Shown piece by piece: positions 2,824 through 19,248 of a stretch of DNA of 20,413 nucleotides. Origin of the DNA: a virus; the IMG/VR virus record IMGVR_UViG_3300048437_000363, positions 1-20,413 of that record. One strand, written 5' to 3'. The notes below the pieces were generated by a model. It was not told the DNA's origin, did no database searches, and saw only the letters and a program-made list of their open reading frames with translations. A program made the position numbers and the translations under genes. The stretch's first letter is position 1, and every line of letters begins with the position of its first letter.

Positions 2824-3024
2824 ATGGGATTACTCACAGACGCTGGCCTAGCCAGTGCCATCAGGTTGGGCATTCCCTTTTGCCCTTCCTGTGGCAGGAC
2901 TCACAGTTGGATTCGCTCCACTAAACACGTAGCGCCTGGCTATTTCCGCAGAACTCGTGTCTGCCACCACTGCCAGCACGCCTTTCACACGCTTCAACCC
3001 TACGAAACTATTGAAAATGAATGA
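2824..3024 (+). CDS. Zinc ribbon protein, NrdR-like N-terminal type, 66 aa
   Basis: Four Cys in two pairs form a zinc ribbon: CPSC (C20, C23) and CHHC (C47, C50). The segment FRRTRVCHHCQHAFHTLQPYE parallels the zinc ribbon of NrdR regulators, where an Arg-rich strand precedes the second Cys pair and an aromatic-Thr-Glu tail follows; the ATP-cone domain of true NrdR is absent. Known relatives bind nucleic acid or act as protein adaptors. The gene directly follows the 48-aa ORF and overlaps the DNA polymerase start by 8 nt, so it is likely co-translated with the polymerase. A second protein of the same type is encoded after the sigma factor (6496-6756). Confidence 0.75.
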   Translation: MGLLTDAGLASAIRLGIPFCPSCGRTHSWIRSTKHVAPGYFRRTRVCHHCQHAFHTLQPYETIENE

Positions 3025-4834
3025 TTACAAGGTTTATTACGGGATTCGGAATCTCGCCAAGGTCAACACCTGCACCAGCATTGCCTTCGATTGTGAGACG
3101 CTCCAGCTGAAGCCAGAGATAGGCAAGTTGCGGTTGCTGCAGCTTGGGTCGAGGGCTCGGCGCATTGTTGTTGTGATTGACCTGTTTGAGCTGGATGACG
3201 ATGGGCTCAAGCAGATTGACTTGTTCTTTCAGAATGGGCAGCGCTTTTGGTTGGCCCACAACGCAGGCTTTGACCTTGGTTGGATTGCTGCTTATGGCTG
3301 GTATCCCAAGGGCGATGTCCATGATTCGATGCTGGCCTCACGGTTGCTGACCAATGGGCAGCACAACATGAAGCATGGACTGCAGCATGTAGCCAAGCGG
3401 TACCTAGACATTGAGCTGAATAAGGAGGAGCAGCGTTCTGACTGGAGCGGTGACCTCACGGATTCGCAGCTGAGGTACGCAGCTAAGGATGTGGAGGTGT
3501 TGTGTGAGTTGGATAAACCGATTCATGACAAGATCGCTGAAGCAGGTTTAGGTGGTGCATACTCCCTTGAATGTCGGGCGCTACCTGCGTTGTCGGCTAT
3601 GGCCAACACAGGACTCCCCTTTGATAAAGATGCGCTCCACAAAACAGAGATTGACTATGAGAAGGACATTGAGAATCTCGGAAGAGAGTTTCATCTTGAG
3701 TTGGACGACGCACTTCCTGAAGGGGAAAAGTTACCGCGCGACCCCGATGGAACTTTTAACCTTCGGCCTCGCACTTCTGGGTCTGTCAAGCTCGGTACGA
3801 AGGAATACGCCGGGTTCAACATTGGGAGTCCTAAGCAGCTTCTGGACAAACTGACCTTGGTGTTGGGGGAGGTTCCCATTGACGCCAAGACCCAGAAACC
3901 ATCGGCATCACGTGGTGCGTTGCGTGAATACCAGGGTGAACACACTGTCGTAGCAACGTATCTGCAATGGAAGAAGGCAGAGAAACGTAGGCAGATGGTG
4001 GCCTCATTGCTGAAGCACCAATCGGCTGATGGGTTTGTGCGTGCCAGCTATTGGCAGCTCGGGGCGGAGACAGGCCGCATGACGTGCTCTAATCCGAATT
4101 TGCAGCAGATTCCCAGAGATGAGCAGTTCCGGGCGTCGGTTGTCGCTCCAGCTGGTTGGTCGTTTATTGATGCTGACTTCTCGCAGATGGAGTTGCGGTT
4201 GCTGGCGATTGTGGCGGAAGACGAGAACATGTCTAATGCCTTTATTGATGGCAAAGACCTGCATACGGCTACTGCTGAAGCACTGGGGTGTGACAGACAA
4301 ATTGCCAAGTCTGCAAACTTTGGGTTGGCATACGGCAGTGGCCCTAAGGGTTTACGGAACTACGCAGCCGGTATGGGCGTGCAGATTACGCTCGAAGAAG
4401 CCACAGCGGTCAGGCAACAATGGCTTGACACTTATTACGGTGTGAGGGCTTGGCATCGCAGGTTGGCGAAGGAGTCCGACCGCACTGAGGGTGGGATGCC
4501 TGCGCTTCACATTCCAGGGTCAAGGATGCGGCGGTTTCTGCCGGGTGAGATGAACAGGCTGACTGTTAGGGCAAACACTCCAGTGCAAGGAGCTGGTGCG
4601 GCGATTCTTAAATGCGCTCTAGGCACATTGTGGAAGGATGCACAAGGCAACGATGAGGTGAAAATATGCGCAGCTGTGCACGATGAACTGATTCTGTTGG
4701 TAAAGGAAGGGCAGGAAGAGAAGTGGGCTGCCATCCTGCAGAAAGCCATGGAAGGCGCAGAGGCGAAGTGGTTAGGAGCAATCCCCGCTGTTGCAGACGT
4801 GAAAATTGGTAAGACGTGGCAGGAATGTCACTGA
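3017..4834 (+). CDS. polA: Family A DNA polymerase with 3'-5' proofreading exonuclease, 605 aa
   Basis: Phage replicative polymerase. The N-terminal DEDD exonuclease shows FDCETL (D25, E27), AHNAGFDLGW (D86) and YAAKD (Y154, D158). The polymerase domain shows ETGRMTCSNPNLQQIPRD, motif A DADFSQMELR (D387), motif B RQIAKSANFGLAYG (K431, F435, Y439) and motif C VHDELILL (H555, D556, E557). All catalytic residues are present. There is no 5' nuclease domain, as in T7-type and many cyanophage enzymes. F435 aligns with Phe762 of E. coli Pol I. The frame is open to 2957, but MNDYKVYYG at ATG 3017 fits the family and gives the 8-nt overlap with the zinc ribbon gene; the extra 20 residues lie in that gene. 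No primase or helicase is in the window. Confidence 0.97.
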   Translation: MNDYKVYYGIRNLAKVNTCTSIAFDCETLQLKPEIGKLRLLQLGSRARRIVVVIDLFELDDDGLKQIDLFFQNGQRFWLAHNAGFDLGWIAAYGWYPKGDVHDSMLASRLLTNGQHNMKHGLQHVAKRYLDIELNKEEQRSDWSGDLTDSQLRYAAKDVEVLCELDKPIHDKIAEAGLGGAYSLECRALPALSAMANTGLPFDKDALHKTEIDYEKDIENLGREFHLELDDALPEGEKLPRDPDGTFNLRPRTSGSVKLGTKEYAGFNIGSPKQLLDKLTLVLGEVPIDAKTQKPSASRGALREYQGEHTVVATYLQWKKAEKRRQMVASLLKHQSADGFVRASYWQLGAETGRMTCSNPNLQQIPRDEQFRASVVAPAGWSFIDADFSQMELRLLAIVAEDENMSNAFIDGKDLHTATAEALGCDRQIAKSANFGLAYGSGPKGLRNYAAGMGVQITLEEATAVRQQWLDTYYGVRAWHRRLAKESDRTEGGMPALHIPGSRMRRFLPGEMNRLTVRANTPVQGAGAAILKCALGTLWKDAQGNDEVKICAAVHDELILLVKEGQEEKWAAILQKAMEGAEAKWLGAIPAVADVKIGKTWQECH

Positions 4835-5128: not shown

Positions 5129-5401
5129 ATGGCAGGCGTTCACGGCAGCCGAGTTTATTATCAGGTGCTGCTGCAGCCCAACAGAGCTGACTTGGTGAAT
5201 GAACTTGCCCAAGAGGCAGGAGTCAAGTCCACTGAAATGATTCGCAGGATGGTGTACTCCTACCTGGAGCGAGAGTTGCCAGCTTCGATTTATAAGCAGG
5301 CGTTTGCTGCTGATGAGGCTGTGTGGAGGCAGTCAGTGAGGAACAGGGTGGAAGGTCGCGCCAAGAGCAGGGATGCTTCAAAGGTGAAACCATCTGAATA
5401 G
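5129..5401 (+). CDS. Putative ribbon-helix-helix-like DNA-binding protein, 90 aa
   Basis: The segment VYYQVLLQPNRADLVNELAQ followed by AGVKSTEMIRRMVYSYLER has the strand-helix-helix order of RHH proteins: beta strand (YYQVLLQ), helix one (ADLVNELAQEAG) and helix two (STEMIRRMVYSYLER). The C-terminus is basic (VRNRVEGRAKSRDASKVK). It is less canonical than the 1909-2178 protein. ATG 5129 has no clear Shine-Dalgarno sequence. With its own promoter-like motif directly upstream it may be an independently expressed regulator preceding the sigma factor genes. Confidence 0.6.
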   Translation: MAGVHGSRVYYQVLLQPNRADLVNELAQEAGVKSTEMIRRMVYSYLERELPASIYKQAFAADEAVWRQSVRNRVEGRAKSRDASKVKPSE

Positions 5402-5436: not shown

Positions 5437-5646
5437 TTGGATCGCTATTCGTTGTTCATCCCTTGCGGGGACTCGAAAAGATTTCTTGCTGCTGTCTATG
5501 ACCTGACATCCAGTGGCATCCTTCTTACTGATATAGAGGAGGATGCTTGCTCCTATGTCACCATGGACAAAGCCGTTGCAGTGGCGCGGGAGTTAAAATC
5601 GCTCCATGGTTACGACGTGGGTATCTCGGTAACAGCAGATGCCTAA
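5437..5646 (+). CDS. Small hypothetical protein with TTG start, 69 aa
   Basis: Not recognised. The protein begins MDRYSLFIPCGDSKRFLAAV if TTG 5437 is the start. An in-frame TAA directly precedes this codon and no ATG or GTG occurs until residue 43, so a TTG start (5437, or 5452) is needed if the gene is real. It is a compact alpha/beta-looking protein (DKAVAVARELKSLHGYDVGISVTADA). Its last 8 bases overlap the sigma factor start, which argues that it is a genuine, translationally coupled gene and not chance open frame. Confidence 0.55.
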   Translation: MDRYSLFIPCGDSKRFLAAVYDLTSSGILLTDIEEDACSYVTMDKAVAVARELKSLHGYDVGISVTADA

Positions 5647-6496
5647 CGATGCACTGGGGCGTTATCTCACAGAGATTGGTCGGTATCCCCTGTTGGATAA
5701 ACACCAAGAGATTATTCTGTCACGGCAGGTCAGAGCCTGGACGCACACTGAAGAGCCAACACCTAAACAGGTAAAGGCTGGTAAGAGGGCGTACCACAAG
5801 CTGATTAACTGCAACCTGCGCTTAGTGGTGTCGATTGCTAAGCGTTCCACTGCAAAGATTAAGCGGTCGGAGCTGCTGGACTTGATTCAGGAGGGTAACT
5901 GCGGGTTGGCGCATGGGATTAAAAAGTTTGACCCTGAGCGTGGCTATGCGTTGTCCACCTATGTGTATTGGTGGATTCGGCAGAGCATCTCCCGTTACGT
6001 GAGCTGTAGTGACCGGTTGATTCGGTTGCCGTCCCACGCTGTGGAGATGATGGCGAAGCTCAGGATGTGGACTCCCAAGTTTGAGCAGGAGTTTGGCAGG
6101 ATGCCCACGCTGGCTGAGTGTGCGGAGTACTGCAGTACTACTCCCGCAAGGATGAGGATGTACATGGACAACGCGCACGACAGTATCAGCTTGGACGCAC
6201 GAGTCTCATCCACGGATGGTGACTCCACCCTGATGCAATTGATTGCGGGGGATATCAATTTGATGGATGACCTCGACATTTCTGTGCGTTCTGATTTTCT
6301 GGTTGGTCTGCTGGACCGTCTCGAACCAGTGGATAGGGCATTGATTGAGGGTCACTTTGCCTTGGGTGGGGGTGAACCCATGACGCTCCAGGCAATGGGC
6401 CAGCAGTTTGGTTTCTCTAGGGAGAGGGCTAGGCAGAAGTTCAATAAAGCACTTTTAAAACTACAAATTCTTGCTAAACACGCTCGCGCTCTTTGA
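5639..6496 (+). CDS. RNA polymerase sigma-70 family factor, group 2-like, 285 aa
   Basis: Directs RNA polymerase to promoters. Region 1.2: DALGRYLTEIGRYPLL (4-19). Region 2: NLRLVVSIAKR (59-69), LDLIQEGNCGLAHGIKKFDP (80-99) and YALSTYVYWWIRQSISRY (103-120), matching the core-binding and -10 melting/recognition segments. Region 3.0: IRLPSHAVE (128-136). Region 4.2 helix-turn-helix: MTLQAMGQQFGFSRERARQK (248-267). Region 1.1 is absent, as in group 2 sigmas, and the sequence reads most like cyanobacterial ones. At the -10-reading helix, Q115 is kept and S118 replaces the usual Thr, so a somewhat altered -10 preference is possible. It overlaps the upstream gene by 8 nt and ends in a TGATG overlap with the zinc ribbon gene. 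It probably drives phage middle or late transcription. Confidence 0.95.
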   Translation: MPNDALGRYLTEIGRYPLLDKHQEIILSRQVRAWTHTEEPTPKQVKAGKRAYHKLINCNLRLVVSIAKRSTAKIKRSELLDLIQEGNCGLAHGIKKFDPERGYALSTYVYWWIRQSISRYVSCSDRLIRLPSHAVEMMAKLRMWTPKFEQEFGRMPTLAECAEYCSTTPARMRMYMDNAHDSISLDARVSSTDGDSTLMQLIAGDINLMDDLDISVRSDFLVGLLDRLEPVDRALIEGHFALGGGEPMTLQAMGQQFGFSRERARQKFNKALLKLQILAKHARAL

Positions 6497-6756: not shown

Positions 6757-7442
6757 CTATCGATGGCTTCACTGCTTTCTTTCGCTACTACCAGGGGTTG
6801 CCGCACCAGCAGCTGGCGGTAGCTGAGCTGTGGAAGCTGATGCCAGTTTCCCTGCTTGAGGAAGATGCAGATTGGATTGAGCAGTATAGGGGTAGCTCTA
6901 CACCTGTGCAGTTTGAGCAGTTCGTTAGTAAGCCCCAGCTGGCACAGATATGGGAGTGTGACCAGAGCCTCATCACTAACCCTGAAATTGATGAGATGAA
7001 TGCCTGCCTGGAGCGCTATGAAATTACGACGCCCAAGCGGATTAGGCATTTCCTAAGTCAGACGGCGCATGAGTCTGGCGGGGGACGGTACAAAAAGGAG
7101 CTGGCGAGTGGGGAAGCGTATGAGTTCAGGGATGACTTGGGGAATGATGAGGTGGGTGATGGTCCCAAGTACAAGGGTGCAGGGTACATTCAACTCACGG
7201 GTAAGTACAATTACTTACGGTTGAGTGAGTATCTGGGCGACCCACGGGTGATGGAAGGGGTGGATTATGTCGCGCAAAATCTGCCCTTTACTTCGGCGGG
7301 GTATTGGTGGGACGACAACGAGATGAACGAGTTGATTGATAGTGGTGCTGATGTCGTGGCAGTAACCCGCCGCGTCAACGGTGGTACGAACGGGTTAGCT
7401 GATAGGCAGCATTACTACGACATCTGCCTGCGTGTTATCTAA
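6744..7442 (+). CDS. Endolysin: glycoside hydrolase family 19-like lysozyme/chitinase, 232 aa
   Basis: Cell wall hydrolase for host lysis. The catalytic domain covers about residues 90-232: SQTAHESGGGRY carries the probable general acid Glu110, followed by the YKGAGYIQLTGKYNY signature of GH19 and lysozyme-like relatives and by VTRRVNGGTNGLADRQHYY at the C-terminus. The N-terminal part (FTAFFRYYQGLPHQQLAVAE to ADWIEQYR) looks like a separate helical module that often accompanies phage lysozymes, perhaps wall binding. No signal peptide is seen, so a holin or equivalent is expected elsewhere. The start is GTG 6744, overlapping the zinc ribbon gene by 13 nt. It converges on the fibre gene with a 4-nt overlap of stop codons. 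Confidence 0.9.
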   Translation: MSRLTIDGFTAFFRYYQGLPHQQLAVAELWKLMPVSLLEEDADWIEQYRGSSTPVQFEQFVSKPQLAQIWECDQSLITNPEIDEMNACLERYEITTPKRIRHFLSQTAHESGGGRYKKELASGEAYEFRDDLGNDEVGDGPKYKGAGYIQLTGKYNYLRLSEYLGDPRVMEGVDYVAQNLPFTSAGYWWDDNEMNELIDSGADVVAVTRRVNGGTNGLADRQHYYDICLRVI

Positions 7443-9229
7443 GCCCCTTCTAGGGCAGCGATACGAGCTTCAAGCTCTTCGTTCTTTGTAAGCACCTCTT
7501 GCAAAGCCTTAGTTAATAAAGGAATTAATTTCGTCTGGTCCACACCTTGGTAAACAGGTTGGGTGCCTGTAGGTGTCCAGGTGCGAGTACGAGTAACCAT
7601 TGTGGCTACACCGTCGGTCTCTACTTCCTCGGTGTACTCAAGATCTTCTGCTGATGGTTCAGTAACTGATACCTCTAGTTCAGTCCCGTCGTAATCAGCA
7701 AGGGTGCCGATTGCTTCAGTACCATCTTTAGTCCCTGTTACAGCTTCAGGGAGAACTTCTTGTAGTTCATGTGCAAGGAAACCTTTAATATTGTCAGTTC
7801 CACGTAATGTAAAACTACAAGGTTTTAAAGCTTGGATTGCCGTAGATGCAGATGCAAGAGGTTCAATATTTGTCTTTAGACGGTAGTCTGATGTATTATT
7901 AAATGCAGCACCAGCAGACGTAAGTTCAATAGTCGCCACTGCATTACCCAGTCCACTATCTGCAACAGGACCAATATAAAAACGAGTTGTTGGACCAGCA
8001 TTGCCACGGATTTGTTTGATTACATAGTTAGTTGCAAATCTCTCTGCTGTATCAATACTAATATTAGAGTTACCAACTCTGACAGCACCCTTGAAGTAAT
8101 TCGGTGCGGTGCCTGATGCGTAGATGTTGTAATTCTCTCGGTTACCTTGATCTGAAATTGCTGAACGGACACCGTGACATTTAGCAATGCCATCGTATTT
8201 AGAACCATTTATGCTAAGGGTGTTAATGTTTAGTCCAACTAGTTCGCCAATGGTATCTGTCGCCTCCCAATTATCCCAAACTGCGTTAGCTGAATAATAG
8301 GTTGCTACAGGAATGTTAGTAGGGGTGCCTCCACCGCCCTTAAATGTATTCTCGGCATCAATACCATTTACGTTATTTGTACAACCTGCAGGTGTTTCCG
8401 TCCGTACATTAAAAGCATACTGAACACCTGCATCAGTCAAGGGTGTGCCAGTAATGCTGTAAAACCTACTATTTGCAGTACATGACCGGTCGCTAATTGA
8501 TAATGCGCGACCGCTTGCAGAGCTAATGACTACGCGGTCATCAGTACCGCGCCACACCATACAAGACGTGGAACCAGGGTTTACGGTACCATTTGTGTCA
8601 AAGTCTTTTGTTGGCGCTGGAAAATAAATCGCGTTTGCATTGATATAATTTTTGTCGATGTAGTGCGCCCTTCTTGTACCGGTGGTGCCAGCGGTTGGAT
8701 CAAAGTCAGTACCGTCTATATCAAATTTAAAATCAACTCTGCTGTCTCTATCTCCTGTAATTTGAAGTGAATCTTCGTATCCAATAACACTATTACCTTC
8801 AAAACTAAGATCAGAAGTAGAGCCAGCACTGTTCGTTCCTAAATTAATATTTTTTGCTTGAATTTTGCCATTACTCAGCAGATTAATAGTAGTCGAACCA
8901 CCACCCGTAACCTTGACGCCTTCTTCGTGGGTGGTTACCCCGGTAAAGTCGGACGTTCCAGCAACAGATAAGTTTGTCGCTGCAGAGACACTGCCATTAA
9001 GAGTAGAAGTACCGGTAACGGTTAAATCATCTCCGACATTGAGATCTTCGTTTAACGTCAAGTCGCCTGTGACTGGTCCGTTTGTTGCGTCAAGCTGTAG
9101 GTAGATTGCACTACCGTTGTCTAGTGGATCGCCTTTTGCCTCCCAGTAACCAGCAGCGTTCCAGGTGTAGATAACACCGTTTGGAGCGGTCCAAGGTGAA
9201 GCGGATGATGCGGGAAAATCGAGTGCCAT
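7439..9229 (-). CDS. Tail fibre with C-terminal S74 self-cleaving chaperone domain, 596 aa
   Basis: Trimeric receptor-binding fibre. The N-terminus (FPASSASPWTAPNGVIYTWN, then AAGYWEAKGD) is a short module often seen on cyanophage fibres. Residues of about 40-440 are low-complexity Thr/Gly/Asn beta structure. The last 150 residues are a Peptidase_S74 intramolecular chaperone: SDYRLKTNIEPL (Ser447 is the likely nucleophile and cleavage point), GFLAHELQEVLPEAV, and a terminal coiled coil (LTKNEELEARIAALEGA). The family trimerises the fibre and then cuts itself off. It has a motif YNIYASGTAPNYFKG (from residue 367) also repeated in the neighbouring fibre, and a TTHEEGVKVTG block (from residue 99) shared with it. 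No Shine-Dalgarno sequence. It is the last gene of the leftward operon. Confidence 0.92.
   Translation of the reverse strand: MALDFPASSASPWTAPNGVIYTWNAAGYWEAKGDPLDNGSAIYLQLDATNGPVTGDLTLNEDLNVGDDLTVTGTSTLNGSVSAATNLSVAGTSDFTGVTTHEEGVKVTGGGSTTINLLSNGKIQAKNINLGTNSAGSTSDLSFEGNSVIGYEDSLQITGDRDSRVDFKFDIDGTDFDPTAGTTGTRRAHYIDKNYINANAIYFPAPTKDFDTNGTVNPGSTSCMVWRGTDDRVVISSASGRALSISDRSCTANSRFYSITGTPLTDAGVQYAFNVRTETPAGCTNNVNGIDAENTFKGGGGTPTNIPVATYYSANAVWDNWEATDTIGELVGLNINTLSINGSKYDGIAKCHGVRSAISDQGNRENYNIYASGTAPNYFKGAVRVGNSNISIDTAERFATNYVIKQIRGNAGPTTRFYIGPVADSGLGNAVATIELTSAGAAFNNTSDYRLKTNIEPLASASTAIQALKPCSFTLRGTDNIKGFLAHELQEVLPEAVTGTKDGTEAIGTLADYDGTELEVSVTEPSAEDLEYTEEVETDGVATMVTRTRTWTPTGTQPVYQGVDQTKLIPLLTKALQEVLTKNEELEARIAALEGA
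7440..7459. repeat. 20-bp direct repeat at the end of fibre gene 1 (copy at 9267-9286)
   Basis: TAAGCCCCTTCTAGGGCAGC is present identically at 7440-7459 and 9267-9286. On the minus strand both copies encode the last residues and stop of a fibre gene (AALEGA, stop). The repeat contains a 4-bp dyad GCCC/GGGC. Here it also contains the stop codon of the endolysin gene on the plus strand. Confidence 0.9.
8907..8937. repeat. 31-bp near-identical block shared by both fibre genes (copy at 10902-10932)
   Basis: Bases 8907-8937 and 10902-10932 match at 30 of 31 positions (the difference is at 8912/10907). Both encode TTHEEGVKVTG on the minus strand, at residue 99 of the 596-aa fibre and residue 419 of the 972-aa fibre. 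Identity at third codon positions suggests recent duplication or recombination between the fibre genes. Confidence 0.9.
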
Positions 9230-9265
9230 TGTTTTAAAAAGAAAAGGGTTTAACGGGTTGAAGGA

Positions 9266-12184
9266 TTAAGCCCCTTCTAGGGCAGCTACGCGGTCACGGA
9301 GGTCTTTAATAATGGTTAGCAAGTCCTCGGTCGTTCCAATGTATTCTTGATTTTCTACTTGATTACCTTCCTCGTCAGTGGAGTAAGTAGTTTGGAATGC
9401 AGTAGGTTCATCTGATTGCATCCGAAGGCTGAATGCACCGTTGATTAAACCGTTGCAAGTAATATCACCCTCGAAATAATTCGGGGCTTCGCCTTCTGCG
9501 TAGAAGTTAAAAGTATTTGCAGCCGTACCATTATTAGTGAGATTAGAATAAAAGCCTTTCGCGTCACTGGTTGTTGTAAAACTCAGAGCGGAAGAAGCTT
9601 TAAACCCGATATTATCTTTTGTATTATTGACATTAGTGTCTGCGTTAGCAAAAAACCCAATATGTTCAGTGGTTTTATCCATATTTAATATTGATTTTAT
9701 TTGAATGCCAGTCGTCATCGCCTGGACTATTAATCCTTCACCACTAACCCCGGCCCCGCCTGCGTGGCTGGTTCGACCTCGGAAGACTGAGGGTGCGGTG
9801 CCATCTACATACAGTCCATACGCAGTTTTACCGCCACCTAAGTTTCCATTCTGTTGTATGAACAAACCATAAGCAGTACCATTTGTTGCAAGCTGTGATG
9901 CCCCCGTGTTTAAAATATTTATGGCTCTATAGTCTGCAACAGACCCAGCACTACCTCCACCAGCGTTGACGGCTGGGTTTGTAATTTCTAAACCCCTCAT
10001 CCTAGCTAAATTTAAGTTTGTTTTTGTAGTTGGTTCATACGTATAAGGGGCTAACCTTAAACCGGTTACGTCAGTTGAGCTTGTTGATTCCGGTGATGCT
10101 ACAAGTAGTGGACATTCAAACGTAGTAGAGTAATAAAAACCTCTATACTTAACTTTCTCGATATTAGTAGCGCCTTTTGTGAAACCAAGTCCTCTAACTT
10201 GTGCGGTGCCGTCTGAAAGTAAGTCAAGTGTAGTCTTATCACCAAGAGCAAACGTATCTGTAAACGTTGCAGCTGCTAAGTGTGTTGGATAGTCAAGTTC
10301 ACCACTATCAAGCAGTGCTTGTGTTTCTGCATCTTGTTGGTCGTAGTACCACTGACGGGCGAAGCTACCGTCACCAGGCAACGATACATTTGCTGGTGCT
10401 ACTAACGTTCCAGCCTCTAGTGTCTCTAGCTGCTCTTCAGTAAGCGTTGACTTCCACAGTTCAAACGTGTTGCGTGATGTGGAGCCGCCGATGTAGGTGG
10501 AGCCTGCCAGGAATGAAGGTGCATCGCCATCTGCATAGAAGTTATATTCTCCTCCTGAACCTGAGTTGCTATTGATGAAATGTCTGGAGAAATATCCAAT
10601 AAGATTTCCACTTGTTGATACGGCGCTATTTCCTGCAGAGCTGTAGTTATATACATCTTGAGTTGTTGTTGGGTTCGCCGCCGCAACCGAACTAACTAAT
10701 GAAATTGGAGCCGTCGCTGTATCGCTTGAATCATTCCATTCGACTCTAAAACCAATCTTAGCGCCTGTGTTTAAATTCTCAATGATATTTACCTTAGCAG
10801 AGACACCTTCATTAAGGACAAACTTTACTTTATTTGCAAGGCTAAGGTTGATATTGCTGCCACCCGAAGAGAGTCCATTTGCATCACTAGGTATTGCGCC
10901 AGTAACTTTGACGCCTTCTTCGTGGGTGGTTAGCTCTTCAAACGTAATCGCACCAGCGGCGGTGTCACTGCGGACCTTGCTTAAGTACAAAACATCAGCG
11001 TCACTTTCAGTTAACGTGTCGCCCTGTGGTGATGCTTCAACCCATTGGTTTGAGTTAGCGTCTTCGTAATAGACATACAATCTGCCGGAATCATTACTGC
11101 TGTTCCACCACAGGTCACCCTCGGCTGGGCTGACTGGTGGGGTCTCACCGATATAGGTTTCGCTTGGTGGGAAGCTGACGCTAATCTCGCCCGCTGCATC
11201 TACATCAATGCCATCACCAACCTTGACGACACCCAGTGCTGATGCTGTAGCGATGTCTGCATTAAGGGTGTCGGGGTCGGTTGCAGCGTCGTAGGTAAGT
11301 GCGCGGCCTGCTAGTGGGTTTACATCTGCGTCTCCATCTTGTAGCGCACTATCTAATGCTGTCTTGTCTGCTGCGGTCATTAGACCTGCCAGCGTTGTAG
11401 TAGCAGCGGGAATTGTTACGTCCGCACCAGTGCTGCTAGTTACGTCAAGGTCGGTATCATCGCGGTTGGCAATGCCGAGGTCCGTTCCAGTGACGGTTGT
11501 TGGGATGTGGTCCCATTGAGGACCTTGGTAAATTACCCAGTCGCCGGGGTTTGCATCTGTTGCGGTAGTGGCGTTGCTAGTTGTTGCTGCCCACTGGCTG
11601 CTGAACTTGCCTGTGCCGGTGTTGGCGTATAGGTCTCCTTCGGCAGCGCCACTGATGACGGTGGCAGTTGTGACATCTACTGTGCCTTTGTAGCTGAGAC
11701 CTCCGCTAATAGTGGATTCAATCTTGCCGTCAGCGTCAAAGGTAAGACCCGCGCCAAGCTTTACCGCAATCTGGTCACCGCTGAATTCAAGCCCGCGAGA
11801 TGTGCTGATGTCAGCCGTAACCGTAATGGTCGTACCAATCGTGGTGGCTTCGATGCCGTCACCGCCGATGACCGTAATCGTTCCAGGGGTACCGCCGCCT
11901 CCACCGCTGCCGCCGCCAATCTCTACCCATGTTGTGCCGTTATAAAGGAATAAAGTATCGCCGCGTAGCCACCACTTGCCCAGGATGGGGTTGCCTGGTG
12001 CGTCACCCGCAACGGCACTAATAAATACACCGCCGAGCTGCACAATTTCACCGGCTGCATCCTTGCACTGCAGGTATGGTCCAGATTCGTTGTAGTTAAG
12101 TGCTAGTTCGCCTAACTCAAGCTGCGCTCCAGTGGCATTCTTAAATTCGACAGCACTACGTTTGTGCAGGATTTGAACTGCCAT
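9266..12184 (-). CDS. Large tail fibre / receptor-binding protein, 972 aa
   Basis: Long fibre-like structural protein. The N-terminus MAVQILHKRSAVEFKNATGA is a type common on cyanophage fibres, followed by GELALNYNESGPYLQCKDAAG and a Gly-rich hinge (GGGSGGGGG, about residue 95). Thr/Ala/Asp-rich beta repeats follow, then a module GDLWWNSSNDSGRLYVYYED (about 355-385) that resembles carbohydrate-binding-type inserts of cyanophage fibres. From residue 547 on there are three units of the form YxxYxxGxAPxxxxG (547, 789, 892), as in the neighbouring fibre. The C-terminus (LLTIIKDLRDRVAALEGA) is a trimeric coiled coil without an S74 domain. No Shine-Dalgarno sequence at the ATG. A 36-nt gap separates it from the 596-aa fibre. 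Confidence 0.88.
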   Translation of the reverse strand: MAVQILHKRSAVEFKNATGAQLELGELALNYNESGPYLQCKDAAGEIVQLGGVFISAVAGDAPGNPILGKWWLRGDTLFLYNGTTWVEIGGGSGGGGGTPGTITVIGGDGIEATTIGTTITVTADISTSRGLEFSGDQIAVKLGAGLTFDADGKIESTISGGLSYKGTVDVTTATVISGAAEGDLYANTGTGKFSSQWAATTSNATTATDANPGDWVIYQGPQWDHIPTTVTGTDLGIANRDDTDLDVTSSTGADVTIPAATTTLAGLMTAADKTALDSALQDGDADVNPLAGRALTYDAATDPDTLNADIATASALGVVKVGDGIDVDAAGEISVSFPPSETYIGETPPVSPAEGDLWWNSSNDSGRLYVYYEDANSNQWVEASPQGDTLTESDADVLYLSKVRSDTAAGAITFEELTTHEEGVKVTGAIPSDANGLSSGGSNINLSLANKVKFVLNEGVSAKVNIIENLNTGAKIGFRVEWNDSSDTATAPISLVSSVAAANPTTTQDVYNYSSAGNSAVSTSGNLIGYFSRHFINSNSGSGGEYNFYADGDAPSFLAGSTYIGGSTSRNTFELWKSTLTEEQLETLEAGTLVAPANVSLPGDGSFARQWYYDQQDAETQALLDSGELDYPTHLAAATFTDTFALGDKTTLDLLSDGTAQVRGLGFTKGATNIEKVKYRGFYYSTTFECPLLVASPESTSSTDVTGLRLAPYTYEPTTKTNLNLARMRGLEITNPAVNAGGGSAGSVADYRAINILNTGASQLATNGTAYGLFIQQNGNLGGGKTAYGLYVDGTAPSVFRGRTSHAGGAGVSGEGLIVQAMTTGIQIKSILNMDKTTEHIGFFANADTNVNNTKDNIGFKASSALSFTTTSDAKGFYSNLTNNGTAANTFNFYAEGEAPNYFEGDITCNGLINGAFSLRMQSDEPTAFQTTYSTDEEGNQVENQEYIGTTEDLLTIIKDLRDRVAALEGA

Positions 12185-12230
12185 TGCTATTTAGCGAAGA
12201 GCGCGGTATCTACCGTGCCCTTATTCTAGG

Positions 12231-12473
12231 CTAAGGAACTTCTGGGTTAATACCTAAGGCAGCCTCGATGGCAGACAGTCGAGCCACTATCTGATTGAGT
12301 CGTGACACAGGGTTACCTAAATCCGTAGATTCCCAGTAGCCGCCTTCGTCTGATGTGTCGGGCTGTTGCCAGGTAACCAGACTGTCTCCTGTGTAGTATC
12401 GGTCGCCGCCTGTCAGACCGGAAGATGTTTCTTCCAAGCTTCGGTCTTCGTATTTGGGAAAGCTATCGGTCAT
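12231..12473 (-). CDS. Small structural or fibre-associated protein, 80 aa
   Basis: Not recognised by family. The N-terminal part is acidic and aromatic (MTDSFPKYEDRSLEETSSGL, then GGYWESTDLGN). The C-terminus (NPVSRLNQIVARLSAIEAALGI) is a short heptad-like coiled coil of the kind that ends phage fibres. Its ATG overlaps the stop of the 1604-aa gene by 4 nt (ATGA), so it is translated with that gene. It sits between the giant structural protein and the large fibre, which fits an adaptor, fibre chaperone or small tail component. The 46-nt gap to the next gene contains a small dyad (CGGTA/TACCG). Confidence 0.7.
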   Translation of the reverse strand: MTDSFPKYEDRSLEETSSGLTGGDRYYTGDSLVTWQQPDTSDEGGYWESTDLGNPVSRLNQIVARLSAIEAALGINPEVP

Positions 12474-15400
12474 CCGTACACCCTCGCGTTCGACTGATAG
12501 TTACGCACGTAGTCTAGACCGTACACGATCTCGGCATATTTAATACCAAGCTGAATGGCTGCGGGTCCGTAAACATAGGCGTCATTCATAATCGAGGGGT
12601 CGTCACCTGGGGGGTTTACAGGGACATTGGGTTCTCCGACAAAGTTTTCGCCGTTGCGCTTAAATATCTGTGAGCGCAGTTCGTAGTTCCAGAACGAGCC
12701 TTGAGGAATTTCGTTCTCGGGTTTAGCGGTGGTATTGATTGCTCCAGCATCTTGACTTTGATGTGCCGAAAGTGTGGCTGACAAAAAGGAGGTAGGGTCG
12801 CTGCTACGTAGCCGCTGTTTCGTAAAGCCGAAGTTGCCAGCAACACCCGACTTCCTCGCTGGAACATTTGATGTCCTGTATTCGTTCCAGTGGTAGCGGA
12901 GTTGCCTGCGGTTACGCATCAGTGAGCCAAAAATACTATCGAAACCTGGACCCATTTTGTTAACATCTACTGTCGGAGTAGTTGCATAGGCAGCATCGGT
13001 ATTAACCATATATTTACCCTCGTTGGTCATTAGATGCCAGTTGGTGGAGGTAAGGTTGTAGTTGTATTGACTAGGACCTTCGATAATTCGGCGTCCATAG
13101 CGACCGAAAGCAAGTGAGACAGTTGCATCACTTGCGTTTTGTGCGGTGCTAATAAAGCAAGGTGCAAAACCGTAAAGTTCGTAGTCATTAATTCCGCCAA
13201 ACTGCGGACGTTGAGCGTTAGGAACAGTAATAGTGCCAGCAAAGCGGTTATTACCCACTAGTGTTAAACCATTGAGTTCCAGCACGGCTGTTCCGTCACA
13301 AGTAATTAAAGCACTGTTATCGCTCCTGCCGCCTCTGCTTGCGGCAAGCCCTATTGCAGTAATGCAAACGTTATCAGTGCGAAGCGCATTACGGACATAC
13401 AAAATTCCGTTGTTGTCGATGTAGTCAAGGTTGCCTTTGCCGTTCAACATGTAGAAGAACGCTGCGGTGCAAATGTCTTCAGGAGGCCGGTTGCGAACGT
13501 ACTCAAGCTCCGTTTGAGTTATCTCGCTGAACCAGCTGTTTGGGACAAACTGCGGGGTTTTTGGGTCGTCGACACGGTCTCCCTGTGCTGCACGTAGAGT
13601 TTCACTAACGCCCCACCAAGTGACGGCTTTTAGCGTGGCACGTTGACGAAAAGCAAATGCTAAAGGACGTAACGAGATACGATTGCGAGTGCCGCTGTTG
13701 ACCACCCTATAGTTGATTTGCGTCAAGAACACAGGCATATTGTCTGGGTTCCTAACACTCGATAGAAAAGTATTTTCGGGGAAGCGCCCCAGTGCACCTG
13801 TGTCGCCTTTTTCGTTCTCGACGGTCCCAAGCCACGGTGACTCGTTAAGGTCATCAGCAAAAGCATTGGTAGCAAAGTTGTAGCCGATAATGCTGGCGCG
13901 ATGCTCAAATACAATTTCGCCGTAGTCTTCTACATACAAACCACAACCGCAGTTATAGACGATGGCAGTGGCAGTGTTTAGTGTTGCGTTTGCGTAAGCG
14001 ACAGCCAAACGGATGTTCTTGCACGCAGTAGATGGCGTTAGTGGTGGATTGTTGATTAGCTCTTCGACAGTTGTTGCGTCCCAGTTGCTGGATTCGTTGA
14101 GAGTTGGGAAAATAATTTCACTTGCATCCGGACGGGTTGCACGGGGGTTAATAAAGATGTAGACCGGACCGGGCTGTGAACCGAGCAGACGGTTGCGACT
14201 GCGCCATGTGTCGAGGTAGTAGGGGGTAACAAAGCTGGGGCCGGTGTAACCGGTGGCGTTAAACGCACCGCTGAATTCGCCAGCTTCATTGGTGTCATTA
14301 AGTTCTAAGGCTTGCTCAGGGTTGACATCAATGATGTTCTGCATCGGAGCGACCCAGGACATGCCGCGTCCGGCGCTGGGCTCGTTTGCGTTGTCGCGAT
14401 GGTTCTTGACCAGCGAAACTTGGTTGCTGTCAATTTCGTTGACGGTCAGCTTGCCCTGGATGAGCACGTCGCCGTTAAAGGTGACAGTCTGGTTTGGATC
14501 GCGGTCACCACCAATGCCCTCGGGGCTTAGTGTTTCGCCCGTTTGCAGGTCAGTTAAGCCAGCGGCGGAGACACCAAAGCCTTCTTCGTTAAAGCCGCTG
14601 ACATAGCAGCGACCACCCATACTGTTGGTAAAGAAGTAGGTGAACTTGTTAGAAGCACTTAGGTCACGCTGATACTGCGGCAGTGCTTTCGTGTAGTTGA
14701 GCTGTCCAGCCCATTCAAATGCGTGGGAATATAGACGTATATTGCTGGGGCGACGGAATTGAATCTCCCAGTTATCCCATGAATTAGCTGCACCATTGGG
14801 TTGACTAATACCGTCGTACGCGGTGTTGGGGTTAAAGATTCGATCAGCGTCTGGCTTGGGGGCCAAAATAGTATGGGCATCTCCGCCGTTAAAACCGAGG
14901 CTTCTTAAGAAGGAGTACAGACCTAAATAGTCAGTAGCAGTACGAACCTGACGCTTTAGCTCGTCGTCTTTACTTAAAGCATCGACGTCATAACCAAGCA
15001 GGGGGTCTGCATTAGTTTCGTCTTGGTCTTTGTCAAAATAAATAATCGGTTGGACGTTTTTAAAATAGTCTTCAGCAGGATAATCTTCGTGCATATGCAC
15101 AAAGCATTCGTCCCACTTGGAGTCGTCAAAAGCTTCGGCAATATGCTCGACAGTACACTTCCAGTGCTTGTTGACGTAGCGCACCACGTCACCGGGACGG
15201 TAATAGTTGTTTGCTTGGTGGTAACCGCCGCTGCCTGAATCATCGGTGCCGATGTAAGCGCCGTTTTTGTCCCACTTGGCCGAAGCTGCAGCGCGACGAA
15301 GTTCGATTTCGTTTGTTCGCTGGACGCCGCCTTCAGCTTTTTTGATAGCGATGGTGCCAACGACAATCGGTTCCTTTTCGTTAATCTCCTCGTCGATTGC

Positions 15401-17284
15401 CGATGAAGCAGTGCCGGTTTGCAGCCCGTAATCGCGAACGATGTTACGGGAGTCAATTGCAGTGTTGTTGCAGATTAGGCTGTAACGACGTTGATCAACC
15501 GTACGGGTGTCGCGCAAACGACGAACATAAACACGCATCCCAGCGATTGGGGGAAGCACGCTGGTGGGATCGTCTGTAGGTGGAAAGTCATCGGTAGCCG
15601 AGACAAACGGTGCAGTAATCCGGATTGTGTCCTTTGAGCTGGTCCGCCAGGCACGGTCTGCCAAGGGCGCGTAGTAGTCAGGTCCGTTAGGGTTCTCAGC
15701 CCACAGCAGGTTGGTGCCGCCGTAGTTGTTCAGGCTTAGCCCATCAATCGCAAGAACGCCAGGGCGGTTCTCTTCCTCACCGTCAAGCTCTTCTTCAAGG
15801 GTGATATTCGTGGCACCGTTTCCCTCGCTGTCAACGATTGTTCCGAGGAAATAGTTAGAAATTTGACCGCTAAGAGATTGAATATCTTGGGCAGTCTTGA
15901 TAAAACCAACGTTCCAGTTCTTGTCTGTGTTAAAAGAATAGTCAACAAATCCGTCGGCTAAAGCACATACTCCCCCGAAATTTGAGTTACTATTTGTTAC
16001 GGTCAATTCTCCGCCGGAGCTAACAGCGTGGTGAACTCCTTGCCCAATTGCAAAAACTGAAACCTCTTGGATGATGGAACGGTTTACGCAACGGATGTGG
16101 ATGCTTCTATAACGCGGGTTCATCCGCACGTTGTCTGGGGTTTCGTCGATATAAGTGTCGTAATCAGCCTGGGCAATATCTACCCAGTTTCCGCTGTTGT
16201 AGCGCTGCCAACAGCGCATGTCCTTCTGCATCGAGATCGCGGTGTACTGCGCCACGACCATTGACTTGAAACCCTCAACTTGCGAGCCATCGGCAAATAT
16301 GCCCGACATCCCGTACAAACTACGAATTGAGCAGTTGTATATATAAGGTGAGGCTGATTCAACAGTGTCAGTAGATTCGCTCTGGAATCCAGGCAGTGGC
16401 TGCGGTCCTACGATTTGGACTTCGCTGTTGCGGGTACGCGCCAGGGTGCTAACGCCTGCTGCAGGTCCGAACGAAGCAAGGATCTTTTTGTAGAACTCAT
16501 CAACCCGTGCGCGACCTGCAAAGGAGAATGTGTCGAGCAGGTGGTGTGACTGGTTGTAATCTTTCTTGTCTAGGAAGGTAAATCCGTAGTAGTAACCCGT
16601 TCCAGTGACACGGAAGATGCTGGAGCGGTTGCTGTAGTCCGCTTTTTCTTCTTCAAATTTTGGGACATAGGTAGGACGTAGGTTTGTTTTGCGGAGGTCC
16701 ATGCTGACCACGCTGCAACCACGAGGCAACACAACGCCACCATCAGCAGCGTTGAATTTTTTAAGCTTGGATGTAGTGAATTTTGTTTTGTTACCTACGT
16801 CAGGGAAATCTGTTGCGTTATAAGGCGTGCCAGGGTCATTGATGACGTCGTGGACACCGGAGTTGACGACGATGGTTACAAGGTCGCCGCATAGATTGCC
16901 GGGTAAGTCGAGGTAGTCCTTGCTGGTAATAATGCCCGCTTCGATTGCAGCGCGGTTGATTGTTTTGAATGGACGGGCTTCGGTGTAGCCACACTCCAGA
17001 CGTTGGTTGGAGATGCGGCGCATCTTCTGCTCAAAGCTGCCGTCATCAGCAGCTGCATATTCACCGCCTACAAAATCGTCGCTGCCTGTATAGCTGTTGA
17101 CGTACAGGACATACGGTGCGGATAGAGGGTCATTGACAACAGTCGAACCACCTTCAATTTCTGCCTTGCCGCCCAGTTGGCGGACAGCATCCGTTAGCGC
17201 GTCTATCTGGTCGCGGTATTTGCCTTGAGGAATATCAAGATGACCAAGAGAAAATTCTTCGCCAGCCTTGTTAATCTCGGTCAC
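12470..17284 (-). CDS. Giant tail-associated structural protein (spike/fibre with beta-helix signature), 1604 aa
   Basis: Very large virion protein. After a short coiled-coil-like segment (RDQIDALTDAVRQLGG, 24-39) comes YVNSYTGSDDFVGG (61-74) and then PFKTINRAAIEAG (105-117), the N-terminal signature of right-handed beta-helix spikes. A later stretch (HAFEWAGQLNYTKALPQYQ, then NKFTYFFTNSMGGRCYVSGF and FNEEGFGVSAAGL) closely resembles large structural proteins of cyanophages. Several Cys are scattered (for example NCGCGLY). No membrane segments or peptidase motif were seen. The start is GTG 17284 with no Shine-Dalgarno sequence, 7 nt after the preceding stop. It probably forms a side spike or part of the tail tip or collar; enzymatic polysaccharide depolymerase activity is possible but unproven. 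Confidence 0.85.
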   Translation of the reverse strand: MTEINKAGEEFSLGHLDIPQGKYRDQIDALTDAVRQLGGKAEIEGGSTVVNDPLSAPYVLYVNSYTGSDDFVGGEYAAADDGSFEQKMRRISNQRLECGYTEARPFKTINRAAIEAGIITSKDYLDLPGNLCGDLVTIVVNSGVHDVINDPGTPYNATDFPDVGNKTKFTTSKLKKFNAADGGVVLPRGCSVVSMDLRKTNLRPTYVPKFEEEKADYSNRSSIFRVTGTGYYYGFTFLDKKDYNQSHHLLDTFSFAGRARVDEFYKKILASFGPAAGVSTLARTRNSEVQIVGPQPLPGFQSESTDTVESASPYIYNCSIRSLYGMSGIFADGSQVEGFKSMVVAQYTAISMQKDMRCWQRYNSGNWVDIAQADYDTYIDETPDNVRMNPRYRSIHIRCVNRSIIQEVSVFAIGQGVHHAVSSGGELTVTNSNSNFGGVCALADGFVDYSFNTDKNWNVGFIKTAQDIQSLSGQISNYFLGTIVDSEGNGATNITLEEELDGEEENRPGVLAIDGLSLNNYGGTNLLWAENPNGPDYYAPLADRAWRTSSKDTIRITAPFVSATDDFPPTDDPTSVLPPIAGMRVYVRRLRDTRTVDQRRYSLICNNTAIDSRNIVRDYGLQTGTASSAIDEEINEKEPIVVGTIAIKKAEGGVQRTNEIELRRAAASAKWDKNGAYIGTDDSGSGGYHQANNYYRPGDVVRYVNKHWKCTVEHIAEAFDDSKWDECFVHMHEDYPAEDYFKNVQPIIYFDKDQDETNADPLLGYDVDALSKDDELKRQVRTATDYLGLYSFLRSLGFNGGDAHTILAPKPDADRIFNPNTAYDGISQPNGAANSWDNWEIQFRRPSNIRLYSHAFEWAGQLNYTKALPQYQRDLSASNKFTYFFTNSMGGRCYVSGFNEEGFGVSAAGLTDLQTGETLSPEGIGGDRDPNQTVTFNGDVLIQGKLTVNEIDSNQVSLVKNHRDNANEPSAGRGMSWVAPMQNIIDVNPEQALELNDTNEAGEFSGAFNATGYTGPSFVTPYYLDTWRSRNRLLGSQPGPVYIFINPRATRPDASEIIFPTLNESSNWDATTVEELINNPPLTPSTACKNIRLAVAYANATLNTATAIVYNCGCGLYVEDYGEIVFEHRASIIGYNFATNAFADDLNESPWLGTVENEKGDTGALGRFPENTFLSSVRNPDNMPVFLTQINYRVVNSGTRNRISLRPLAFAFRQRATLKAVTWWGVSETLRAAQGDRVDDPKTPQFVPNSWFSEITQTELEYVRNRPPEDICTAAFFYMLNGKGNLDYIDNNGILYVRNALRTDNVCITAIGLAASRGGRSDNSALITCDGTAVLELNGLTLVGNNRFAGTITVPNAQRPQFGGINDYELYGFAPCFISTAQNASDATVSLAFGRYGRRIIEGPSQYNYNLTSTNWHLMTNEGKYMVNTDAAYATTPTVDVNKMGPGFDSIFGSLMRNRRQLRYHWNEYRTSNVPARKSGVAGNFGFTKQRLRSSDPTSFLSATLSAHQSQDAGAINTTAKPENEIPQGSFWNYELRSQIFKRNGENFVGEPNVPVNPPGDDPSIMNDAYVYGPAAIQLGIKYAEIVYGLDYVRNYQSNARVYG

Positions 17285-17291
17285 GTTCCAG

Positions 17292-18452
17292 CTAACTAGG
17301 TCCTTGCATTAGTTTAATAGGTCCGGTGGTTATAAACTGCGCGGTGCCCACAACCAGTTCAGTTGGGCGAACGTTGACCGCAGTTTGTGTGATTAAAATA
17401 TTCGCCTTGTAATACAGGGAACCGCCGATGGGTGGGAAGCAGTCGTTGCAACCGTTGCCTTCCATTACCATGAACCACGCTTCTGTTTCTATTGGCGCAC
17501 CACTGCAGCCGCCCTCAGTGTTGAACAGTAGTTGCATCATCATCCAGCTGGCGTCTTCTACTTCATCGCTGAGGCATGTGCGGTCGATGAAGAATTCAAA
17601 GCTTCCTCCACCGCTAACTAGGCTCTTGACCGCTTCGCCAAACTTCTCGCCCACGATGGTGGTGTCGATGCTTGGGGCGTCGAGCGTCAAGCTGTACTCA
17701 CGGATGCCGCATAGAGCCTGGGGGGAAGGCCATTCTCTATAAGGGCGGGGCAGTACATCGGCATCGCCGTAGTCGGTCGTTCCAGGGACAGGGAAGTCAA
17801 ACTCTGGGGCGGACTCGCAGATGGTGATGGCGGTGTCTTCGTCTTGGACGTCGCTCATGGCGTAGTCGCCGGTCTTCATGTAGCAGCCGTCGAAGTCGCA
17901 GTCCCAGCGAGCGTTTTGGTAGTCGCTTTCGCCGTAGGGGTAGACATCAATGTTCTCGTCGAACCAGGTGTTGGCTAGTTCGATTGGGGTGCCGCAACCG
18001 GAGATGGCGTTGCATCTGCTGTCGTAGAACTTGACCTTGCCAAACTCATCGATGTGGACGTAGTAGCAGCCGCCGCCAGTTTCTTCCTCACCCGGAACGT
18101 CGCCTACACCTTCCTTGCAATAGAAGTTTGCATCGTCTTGGCATTGCCCATCGGGATAGCACTCATTGGGTTGGTCTTTATATAAGACGTCCTTATCGTT
18201 TCGGATGTGGTCGCGGTTTGGACCAACGAAATACTTACTTTCTTGGTAGCTGGCGTAGCCCTCAACAAAATTGGGGAAGCCATCAATGAGGATGGGTAAC
18301 TTGTCGAGGCAAACTAAGTCGCCGTTCCACCAGCCGGGGCAGTTGAATGCGAAGGAGTCGCAGTCGGGGCGGAACCCTTCGTAGCTCAGTTCACAATTTT
18401 GGGGTGCGGGTCTCTTAAGTAGAACGCGACCACCGGAACCAAGAACTGGCAT
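17292..18452 (-). CDS. Cys-rich tail-tube-like protein with inserted domain, 386 aa
   Basis: Two parts. The first about 15 residues (MPVLGSGGRVLLKRPAP) and residues 248-386 (from CGIREYSLTL to TTGPIKL) read as a tail-tube-like fold and align by eye with the 138-aa protein encoded just upstream: REYSLTL/RNWSLTI, SGGGSFEFFID/ATGSATLYYD, LLFNTEGGCSG/SIFEDNSDCTG, and the ending TTGPI/ISGPI. Between them lie about 230 residues very rich in Cys (13 of the protein's 18), Asp and Tyr, not recognised, possibly disulphide-bonded or metal-binding and exposed. The ATG overlaps the upstream stop by one base (TAATG). It may be a decorated tube subunit, a tail-tip ring or a fibre attachment protein. Confidence 0.7.
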   Translation of the reverse strand: MPVLGSGGRVLLKRPAPQNCELSYEGFRPDCDSFAFNCPGWWNGDLVCLDKLPILIDGFPNFVEGYASYQESKYFVGPNRDHIRNDKDVLYKDQPNECYPDGQCQDDANFYCKEGVGDVPGEEETGGGCYYVHIDEFGKVKFYDSRCNAISGCGTPIELANTWFDENIDVYPYGESDYQNARWDCDFDGCYMKTGDYAMSDVQDEDTAITICESAPEFDFPVPGTTDYGDADVLPRPYREWPSPQALCGIREYSLTLDAPSIDTTIVGEKFGEAVKSLVSGGGSFEFFIDRTCLSDEVEDASWMMMQLLFNTEGGCSGAPIETEAWFMVMEGNGCNDCFPPIGGSLYYKANILITQTAVNVRPTELVVGTAQFITTGPIKLMQGPS

Positions 18453-18868
18453 TAGAACGTACCGTCAATTGGTCCGCTTATTTGGAACGACACTTGCACT
18501 GCTGTAGCTGCACCGACTTCAACCGCTGGGCTGATGTTTGTGATTAGGGCCTCAGCTTCAAAATTGCCGGGTTGGTTTGCACAGCTATTTAAGAAGAACG
18601 AAACCGATTGCAAGCAGGTCGTTCCAGTGCAGTCACTGTTGTCTTCAAAGATTGAGTTGAGTAGTGAGCGGTCGGTTTGCTGGGTTGGGTCGTAGTAAAG
18701 AGTGGCTGAACCAGTGGCGGAACGTAGCCCAGCGACATACTCGCGGTCGTAAGTATTAAGGCATGACACCTCGATGGCATCACGCTGGATGGTAAGGCTC
18801 CAGTTGCGGACCTTTACGCAGGTGCCGTTCCCGTACTTCAACTGCCCGTCTGCACCTGTCAATATCAT
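18452..18868 (-). CDS. Tail-tube-like structural protein, 138 aa
   Basis: Beta-rich small protein starting MILTGADGQLKYGNGTCVKV and continuing RNWSLTIQRDAIEVSCLNTY, REYVAGLRSATGSATLYYDP, FEAEALITNISPAVEVGAAT and VQVSFQISGPI. This layout (Gly-rich start, WSLT strand, two-residue turns, closing strand with SFQISG) is that of siphovirus tail tube subunits (gpV-like family), though it is shorter. Position argues for caution: tube genes normally lie before the tape measure and hub, but here it follows the hub. It might therefore be a tail-tip or hub-associated ring using the tube fold. It overlaps the upstream gene by 4 nt (ATGA) and the Cys-rich paralogue by 1 nt. Confidence 0.65.
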   Translation of the reverse strand: MILTGADGQLKYGNGTCVKVRNWSLTIQRDAIEVSCLNTYDREYVAGLRSATGSATLYYDPTQQTDRSLLNSIFEDNSDCTGTTCLQSVSFFLNSCANQPGNFEAEALITNISPAVEVGAATAVQVSFQISGPIDGTF

Positions 18869-19248
18869 GAGTTGATCTCCAGTTGTGCAATGAAACGGGT
18901 GTTGATGCGGTAGAGATTTGGATTGAGGGATTCAACCGTGGGGTTCTCTGCCCAGTGCCATTCTAAATACTCAGGGACAAGTTCATCCAATAGTTGATCA
19001 TTGCTGGAAACAACTGAGTCAGGAAGCTCCACCGGGAGGTACGTCCCATAGCTGGCTTCCCAGTTGTCCATGATTGCGACAAGGATGGTTTCATCTACTA
19101 AAAATTGAACGGTAAGTTCGGCGTCAAAACCTTTGTTGCCATACAAACGGGTCGTTCCAGCGCCGCTGATTGACGTGAACCGTTTTGTGGCAAAGCTTGG
19201 TGCCTTATAGCGGCGGGAGACAGGGCAGACGTAAGGGAAATCAGCCAT
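18865..19248 (-). CDS. Small minor tail protein, 127 aa (possibly gpM-like)
   Basis: Soluble, beta-rich protein (MADFPYVCPVSRRYKAPSFA, then GTTRLYGNKGFDAELTVQFL, EYLEWHWAENPT and LYRINTRFIAQLEINS). The pattern of an early aromatic-basic strand, a strand-loop-strand leading to IMDNWEASYG, and a final strand with RFIAQLE is reminiscent of lambda gpM-type minor tail proteins, but the match is loose and the gene order (after the hub, not before) differs. It overlaps the hub gene by 8 nt and the tube-like gene by 4 nt, so it is part of the same translationally coupled operon. Confidence 0.6.
   Translation of the reverse strand: MADFPYVCPVSRRYKAPSFATKRFTSISGAGTTRLYGNKGFDAELTVQFLVDETILVAIMDNWEASYGTYLPVELPDSVVSSNDQLLDELVPEYLEWHWAENPTVESLNPNLYRINTRFIAQLEINS

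Follow-up and report, generated by a model that had tools for sequence, protein, structure and literature searches.

The viral record IMGVR_UViG_3300048437_000363 of IMG/VR was analysed over a stretch of 20,413 nucleotides (the window), and the element described here is a short oriented DNA motif, CTGGWRCG, that is strongly over-represented in the window and in related phage genomes. The window carries an early operon on the plus strand, encoding a PolA-type DNA polymerase, a sigma factor and an endolysin; the late tail operon lies on the minus strand. The initial annotation had singled out one octamer, CGTTCCAG, with 13 copies on the plus strand and one on the minus strand, 12 of them within 8954-19160. 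Our recount agrees, and the tallies for the near variants AGTTCCAG (2), TGTTCCAG (1) and GGTTCCAG (0) are right as well. Read from the other strand, the octamer is CTGGAACG, and it is listed in this form in Table 1, where the 13 minus strand sites begin at the plus strand starts of CGTTCCAG.

The copies are not a by-product of the encoded proteins. In the leftward genes CTGGAACG is read in at least two frames, eight times as GGA-ACG and three times as TGG-AAC, and one copy spans a gene junction together with the start codon (17284-17291), as had been noted before. Within-gene synonymous codon shuffling (3000 rounds) predicts 1.7 in-gene sense copies and never more than 7, against 11 observed. 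In 2000 synonymous shuffles of the window, the commonest octamer had 5.4 copies on average and 9 at most, so that none of any sequence came to 11. Because the shuffles never reach 11, the excess remains real when codon usage, the encoded proteins and the selection of the octamer are allowed for, and the earlier statement that an amino-acid explanation is insufficient holds. Two further forms had been overlooked, CTGGAGCG with 10 copies and CTGGTGCG with 8 copies, both enriched in the window. Altogether CTGGWRCG occurs at 32 sites, 22 on the minus and 10 on the plus strand, with CTGGAACG being the most polar form.

The tail protein, PolA and the sigma factor served as queries to gather relatives. 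Contigs were oriented by their late genes, so that forward denotes the late-gene direction, and open reading frames (ORFs) were called mechanically. Expected counts come from a third-order Markov model for the comparison of 46 sigma loci and from synonymous shuffles for the sense and antisense, ranking, polarity, phage P1 and window octamer tests. De novo ranking of all octamers on the forward strand places CTGGAGCG, CTGGAACG and CTGGTGCG at the top, and in seven near-complete relatives the octamers of CTGGWRCG take ranks 1, 2, 3 and 7 of 10,339. The oriented consensus is 5'-(C>G,T)TGG(A>T)(G/A)CG-3'. Position 1 favours C, position 5 prefers A and then T, and position 6 is G or A; a single substitution at position 2, 3, 4, 7 or 8 lowers the observed/expected ratio to 0.5-1.1 and the excess is gone. 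Flanking bases hold no information. At fixed positions in PolA the form swaps between phages, AG for TG or AA for AG, while the site is kept, which would be expected under selection on the motif class as such. The signal is degenerate and not the single octamer first described. Some sites form inverted pairs that overlap by two bases (offset 6), which produces palindrome-like words of 14 bases, for example CTGGAACGTTCCAG.

Enrichment is independent of gene sense. In 11 contigs, genes that run along the late-gene direction contain 123 forward sites, where 22.7 are expected, and oppositely running genes contain 88 forward, that is antisense, sites, compared to 8.6 expected. In these contigs the reverse sites, too, are in excess (22 against 11.6 and 44 against 10.2). 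The polarity had been tied to the leftward operon of the window; in relatives, however, the motif continues antisense through the opposite operon, and the polarity is one of the whole genome. The ratios of forward to reverse sites in the seven near-complete genomes G194, G195, G196, G197, G198, G199 and G027 are 68:13, 79:20, 59:13, 53:11, 41:8, 45:8 and 42:12, respectively. None of the seven, two of which are closed by terminal repeats, shows a polarity switch around the genome, and the strand switch that had been suggested for testing at a replication or packaging boundary was not seen. Forward bias and density both peak upstream of the terminase gene. In six genomes the terminase large subunit gene was identified (through phrog_2 in G195, through tblastn in the others; it was not found in G027), and the 10 kb upstream of it show a ratio of 125:14 compared to 220:59 elsewhere (Fisher p 0.006), with 2.32 sites per kb compared to 1.42. 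The densest 3 kb of G195 (20751-23750) hold 16 sites, all forward, and span the 5' end of the primase gene together with the genes for an SSB-like protein and an exonuclease. The SSB-like gene is taken for such by its place and size, and its counterpart in contig G004 matches SSB families.

The motif marks a lineage of phages. A megablast search of the window against known phages gave no match. The tail fibre protein matches cyanophage-type records only (458 records in the phage collection, below 60% identity), and the best named-phage matches of the sigma factor are the cyanosiphophages S-CBS3, KBS-S-2A and S-CBS1, similarities that point to a picocyanobacterium as the probable host. All 46 loci whose sigma factor is of the clade type, defined by at least 49% identity in the best segment, show an excess of CTGGWRCG, with 805 sites against 111 expected and observed/expected ratios of 2.9-13.7. 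Taken together, loci with more distant sigma factors show no excess (166 against 114). The motif is lacking in several contigs that have related tail proteins (G030, G032, G033, L118 and L119), and therefore it follows the lineage of the early module and not that of the tail. The motif is likewise missing in the known cyanophages S-CBS1, S-CBS2, S-CBS3, S-CBS4, KBS-S-2A, PSS2 and S-CAM4, as far as the examined parts of S-CBS4, PSS2 and S-CAM4 go. The carriers apparently form an undescribed clade of siphophages of about 40-48 kb with presumptive picocyanobacterial hosts. Members (G027, G194-G199) encode their own sigma-70-type factor, PolA, a primase-helicase and a phrog_298 exonuclease. G194 (45,423 bases, direct terminal repeat of 141 bases) and G195 (44,496 bases, terminal repeat of 77 bases) appear complete, while G196, G197, G198, G199 and G027 measure 35-48 kb.

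We propose that CTGGWRCG is a Chi-like signal acting through a RecBCD-type enzyme of the host, a reading to which we assign a probability of roughly 0.6. The initial annotation had suggested an oriented recombination or packaging signal of the Chi type. This core of its proposal remains the best-supported reading, whereas the single octamer and the link to the leftward operon did not stand, and a contribution of codon preference is not needed. Two outcomes had been named as arguments against such a signal, similar counts in codon-preserving shuffles and a lack of enrichment in relatives; neither occurred, and the enrichment is present throughout the clade. As a positive control the same script was applied blindly to phage P1, where Chi of Escherichia coli (GCTGGTGG) comes first of 1309 (43 copies against 5.7 expected), an excess about as strong as that of the cyanophage motif. 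Its polarity amounts to 31:19 for P1 as a whole and to 14:5 for the 30 kb on the left of pac. Since packaging in P1 proceeds rightward from pac, the remaining end lies on this side, and the polarity relative to pac is the same as here. Chi is over-represented in lambdoid phages without RecBCD inhibitors, is concentrated there between the replication genes and terminase, and has been proposed to protect the free end at packaging (Bobay and colleagues, PMC3784561). A comparable course is most likely here. Terminase would cut the concatemer and package away in the late-gene direction, leaving an exposed double-strand end. A RecBCD-type helicase-nuclease entering double-strand ends, and chiefly this one, would move against the late-gene direction and would meet CTGGWRCG from its 3' side, which is the readable orientation, since RecBCD of E. 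coli reads Chi on entry from the 3' side (PMC5959072). At the motif degradation would be attenuated and recombination loading would start, so that the concatemer would be spared and host recombination might rebuild or extend it. On the phage side the motif appears Chi-like in every respect that can be addressed by sequence, although membership of the Chi family is not thereby established.

A candidate for the reader is present in picocyanobacteria. Of 14 Synechococcus/Cyanobium-type genomes, 13 yielded RecC (G019, the fourteenth, is a metagenome-assembled genome placed in the same family), as opposed to 0 of 6 other cyanobacteria searched, a comparison to be read with the host itself only presumed. 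Among residues of E. coli RecC that reportedly influence the recognition of Chi (list from PMC5959072), RecC of WH7803 is changed in Q38N, T40W, Q44R, L64F, W70R and L134A, and it keeps D133, D136 and R142 in the alignment. These pocket changes are compatible with a different Chi, not diagnostic of one. RecC diverges fast within the Synechococcus/Cyanobium group, and the proteins of WH7803 and RCC307 share 33% identity.

Several observations weigh against a host-read signal. By synonymous shuffles, the observed/expected ratio of CTGGWRCG in WH7803 is 1.26 in sense and 1.11 in antisense, in RCC307 1.02 and 0.97, and in SynAce01 the enrichment is slight at 1.59 and 1.19, as it is in Cyanobium-type loci (1.48). 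Along 800 kb of a WH7803 replichore the motif has no polarity. With little or nothing in WH7803, RCC307 and SynAce01, a role of CTGGWRCG as a motif of the candidate host genomes was rejected. No outlier for the motif exists among 151 picocyanobacterial genomes, and the highest counts occur in larger genomes, which is taken to be a matter of composition and codon usage. For a DNA uptake sequence strong over-representation in the host would be predicted, and no such outlier exists in these genomes, among which the true host need not be. Host skew is reported to be lacking for several proven Chi sites as well (PMC5959072), but the missing host enrichment is a real weakness; either the true host is a lineage that has not been sampled or the reader is encoded by the phage. 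Neither a prophage nor a co-binned host contig was found, and there was one short partial match only. Known cyanosiphophages are motif-free, including KBS-S-2A with the recorded host WH7803. Members of the clade encode the PD-(D/E)XK exonuclease of phrog_298 and the SSB-like protein, and therefore may not rely wholly on host recombination. Finally, sites are shared by descent, so that pooled counts across relatives are not fully independent. Other octamers stand above shuffle expectation in the host genomes, for example TGCTCACC in WH7803 (157 against 58) and GATCGAGC in SynAce01 (113 against 43).

A phage-encoded reader would be an end-processing enzyme, the PD-(D/E)XK exonuclease or the primase-helicase, that pauses at CTGGWRCG or alters its activity there while ends are processed or concatemers are replicated, in effect the clade's own Chi-like system. 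From such a reader it follows that candidate hosts lack the motif and that the motif is bound to the early gene module, and this is what is seen: it tracks the sigma/PolA clade, several phages that have related tail proteins are without it, and the host genomes tested do not have it. The exonuclease and SSB-like genes also lie in the densest region of G195. We nevertheless consider this possibility unlikely, as the motif-free phages KBS-S-2A, S-CBS1 and S-CBS2 carry the same exonuclease type (annotated as exonuclease VIII) and we know of no phage exonuclease with genome-wide use of an oriented octamer. Phages that depend on Chi lack an inhibitor of RecBCD and in most cases also a recombinase (PMC3784561). 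RecT was not found in motif-bearing contigs, and motif-poor G032 has one, while no recombinase was found among the ORFs scanned in motif-poor G030 (41 kb). The recombinase family search missed one nuclease that hmmscan found, and RecBCD inhibitors are not recognisable. A rule by which phages without a recombinase carry the motif is suggestive but not clean, because motif-bearing genomes have the exonuclease.

Whole-genome polarity and clade-wide conservation would suit any enzyme that tracks in one direction, and the motif might be another polar DNA-handling signal, for example an FtsK-type site resembling the FtsK orienting polar sequences (KOPS), a lagging-strand initiation signal or a cue for the packaging motor. 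This seems rather improbable, since the core TGGWG and the accumulation upstream of terminase are specific matches to Chi, and to our knowledge no such octamer system has been found in tailed phages. Anti-restriction, by which asymmetric sites of a type III enzyme are held in one orientation, would account for a strongly one-sided asymmetric motif and has a precedent in the EcoP15 sites of T7 (PMC3874151). However, such pressure creates no over-representation, and sites are 6-7 times in excess here; in the near-complete genomes 14-22% of the sites are reverse, so that the orientation is not a single one, reverse sites exceed expectation, and a few inverted sites would suffice for cleavage. We therefore regard it as very improbable. 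A preference for certain codons, codon pairs or amino acids in the tail genes (Gly-Thr as GGA-ACG, Trp-Asn), suggested by most window copies being sense to one operon on GGA-ACG or TGG-AAC, was rejected, because synonymous shuffles fall short of the counts and the enrichment it predicts along the coding sense is contradicted by equal enrichment antisense to the opposite operon and by one polarity genome-wide.

Table 1. Motif sites and landmark genes in the window, and inverted site pairs in related contigs (coordinates refer to the window unless a contig is named).
Feature	Position	Strand	Remark
CTGGAACG site	1427..1434	-	intergenic
CTGGAACG site	2294..2301	+	sole plus strand copy of CTGGAACG
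CTGGAACG site	8954..8961	-	
CTGGAACG site	9157..9164	-	
CTGGAACG site	10406..10413	-	
CTGGAACG site	11483..11490	-	
CTGGAACG site	11879..11886	-	
CTGGAACG site	12883..12890	-	
CTGGAACG site	15910..15917	-	
CTGGAACG site	16598..16605	-	
CTGGAACG site	17284..17291	-	over gene junction and GTG start
CTGGAACG site	17778..17785	-	
CTGGAACG site	18620..18627	-	
CTGGAACG site	19153..19160	-	
CTGGAGCG site	369..376	+	
CTGGAGCG site	1772..1779	+	
CTGGAGCG site	3099..3106	-	antisense to polA; position common to 7 relatives
CTGGAGCG site	3442..3449	+	
CTGGAGCG site	4144..4151	-	antisense to polA; CTGGTGCG at same position in two relatives
CTGGAGCG site	5264..5271	+	
CTGGAGCG site	6384..6391	-	antisense to sigma gene
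CTGGAGCG site	7008..7015	+	
CTGGAGCG site	12125..12132	-	
CTGGAGCG site	16620..16627	+	antisense to tail fibre gene
CTGGTGCG site	142..149	-	intergenic
CTGGTGCG site	1401..1408	+	intergenic
CTGGTGCG site	1722..1729	-	
CTGGTGCG site	4593..4600	+	
CTGGTGCG site	6802..6809	-	
CTGGTGCG site	10949..10956	-	
CTGGTGCG site	11423..11430	-	
CTGGTGCG site	11995..12002	+	
PolA-type DNA polymerase, early operon	2957..4834	+	phrog_17, relatives; orientation landmark
Sigma-70-type factor, marker of motif-bearing clade	5639..6496	+	phrog_351
Tail fibre protein, 1604 aa, late operon	12470..17284	-	phrog_529; orientation landmark
Inverted overlapping site pair	L014:6902-6915		
Inverted overlapping site pair	G027 9146-9159		
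Inverted overlapping site pair	G196 12188-12201		
Inverted overlapping site pair	G196 12929-12942		

Some neighbouring features were noted in passing. Downstream of the large fibre gene, the tail genes at 7439-9229 and 9266-12184 have near-identical ends (RIAALEGA and RVAALEGA), which suggests that they share a C-terminal segment. In G195 a match to thymidylate synthase (phrog_85, L385:11355-11975) adjoins the sigma factor gene. S-CAM4 (L020-L022) has strand-biased words of its own, TGGTACTG (13:0) and GGTTCTGG (17:2); almost all genes there point in the same direction, and this bias may be of coding origin.

Experimental proof exists for only a few Chi sequences. For cyanobacteria we know of none, none was found reported in the literature, and a literature search for CTGGAACG gave only unrelated text matches among the papers listed. 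CTGGWRCG, which the clade has enriched in nearly one orientation, would be a concrete octamer candidate for the RecBCD of picocyanobacteria, the RecC of which departs from that of E. coli at most Chi-reading residues. Since the same script recovered the true Chi in P1, phage genomes appear to be a sensitive place to find Chi-like signals of uncultured or untested hosts. Should the reader instead be encoded by the phage, the motif would belong to an oriented signal system of a new type.

The cyanophage motif can be compared with several known systems. Like Chi of E. coli in P1, it is the top over-represented octamer in the same test, and like Chi in P1 and lambdoid phages it is polar toward the packaging cut and peaks between replication genes and terminase. 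It differs in ending on CG, in being degenerate at positions 5-6, in its stronger polarity and in its density of 1-2 sites per kb compared to about 0.5 per kb for Chi in P1; in contrast to E. coli Chi it is also without comparable enrichment in candidate host genomes. Chi of Haemophilus influenzae (GNTGGTGG or G(G/C)TGGAGG; this and the E. coli sequence were taken from PMC8022716) is likewise degenerate with a TGGWG core, and its host skew is reported not to be significant (PMC8022716, PMC5959072). It ends on GG, however, while the cyanophage motif has a strict CG end and was found here in phage genomes only. Chi of Pseudomonas syringae (GCTGGCGC) departs from E. coli Chi in its 3' bases and has no reported host skew (PMC5959072); it is proven biochemically, and its sequence differs from that of the cyanophage motif. 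Leading-strand polarity is reported to be absent for the true Chi of H. influenzae, Bacillus subtilis, Staphylococcus aureus and P. syringae (PMC5959072). A one-way arrangement of asymmetric sites is also known from T7, which keeps 36 EcoP15 sites in one orientation (PMC3874151), yet strand bias of that kind explains no over-representation, and in the cyanophages reverse sites are present and in excess. Common to the cyanophage motif and E. coli Chi is the core CTGGTG, and, in the wider form CTGGWG, the core extends to Chi of H. influenzae.

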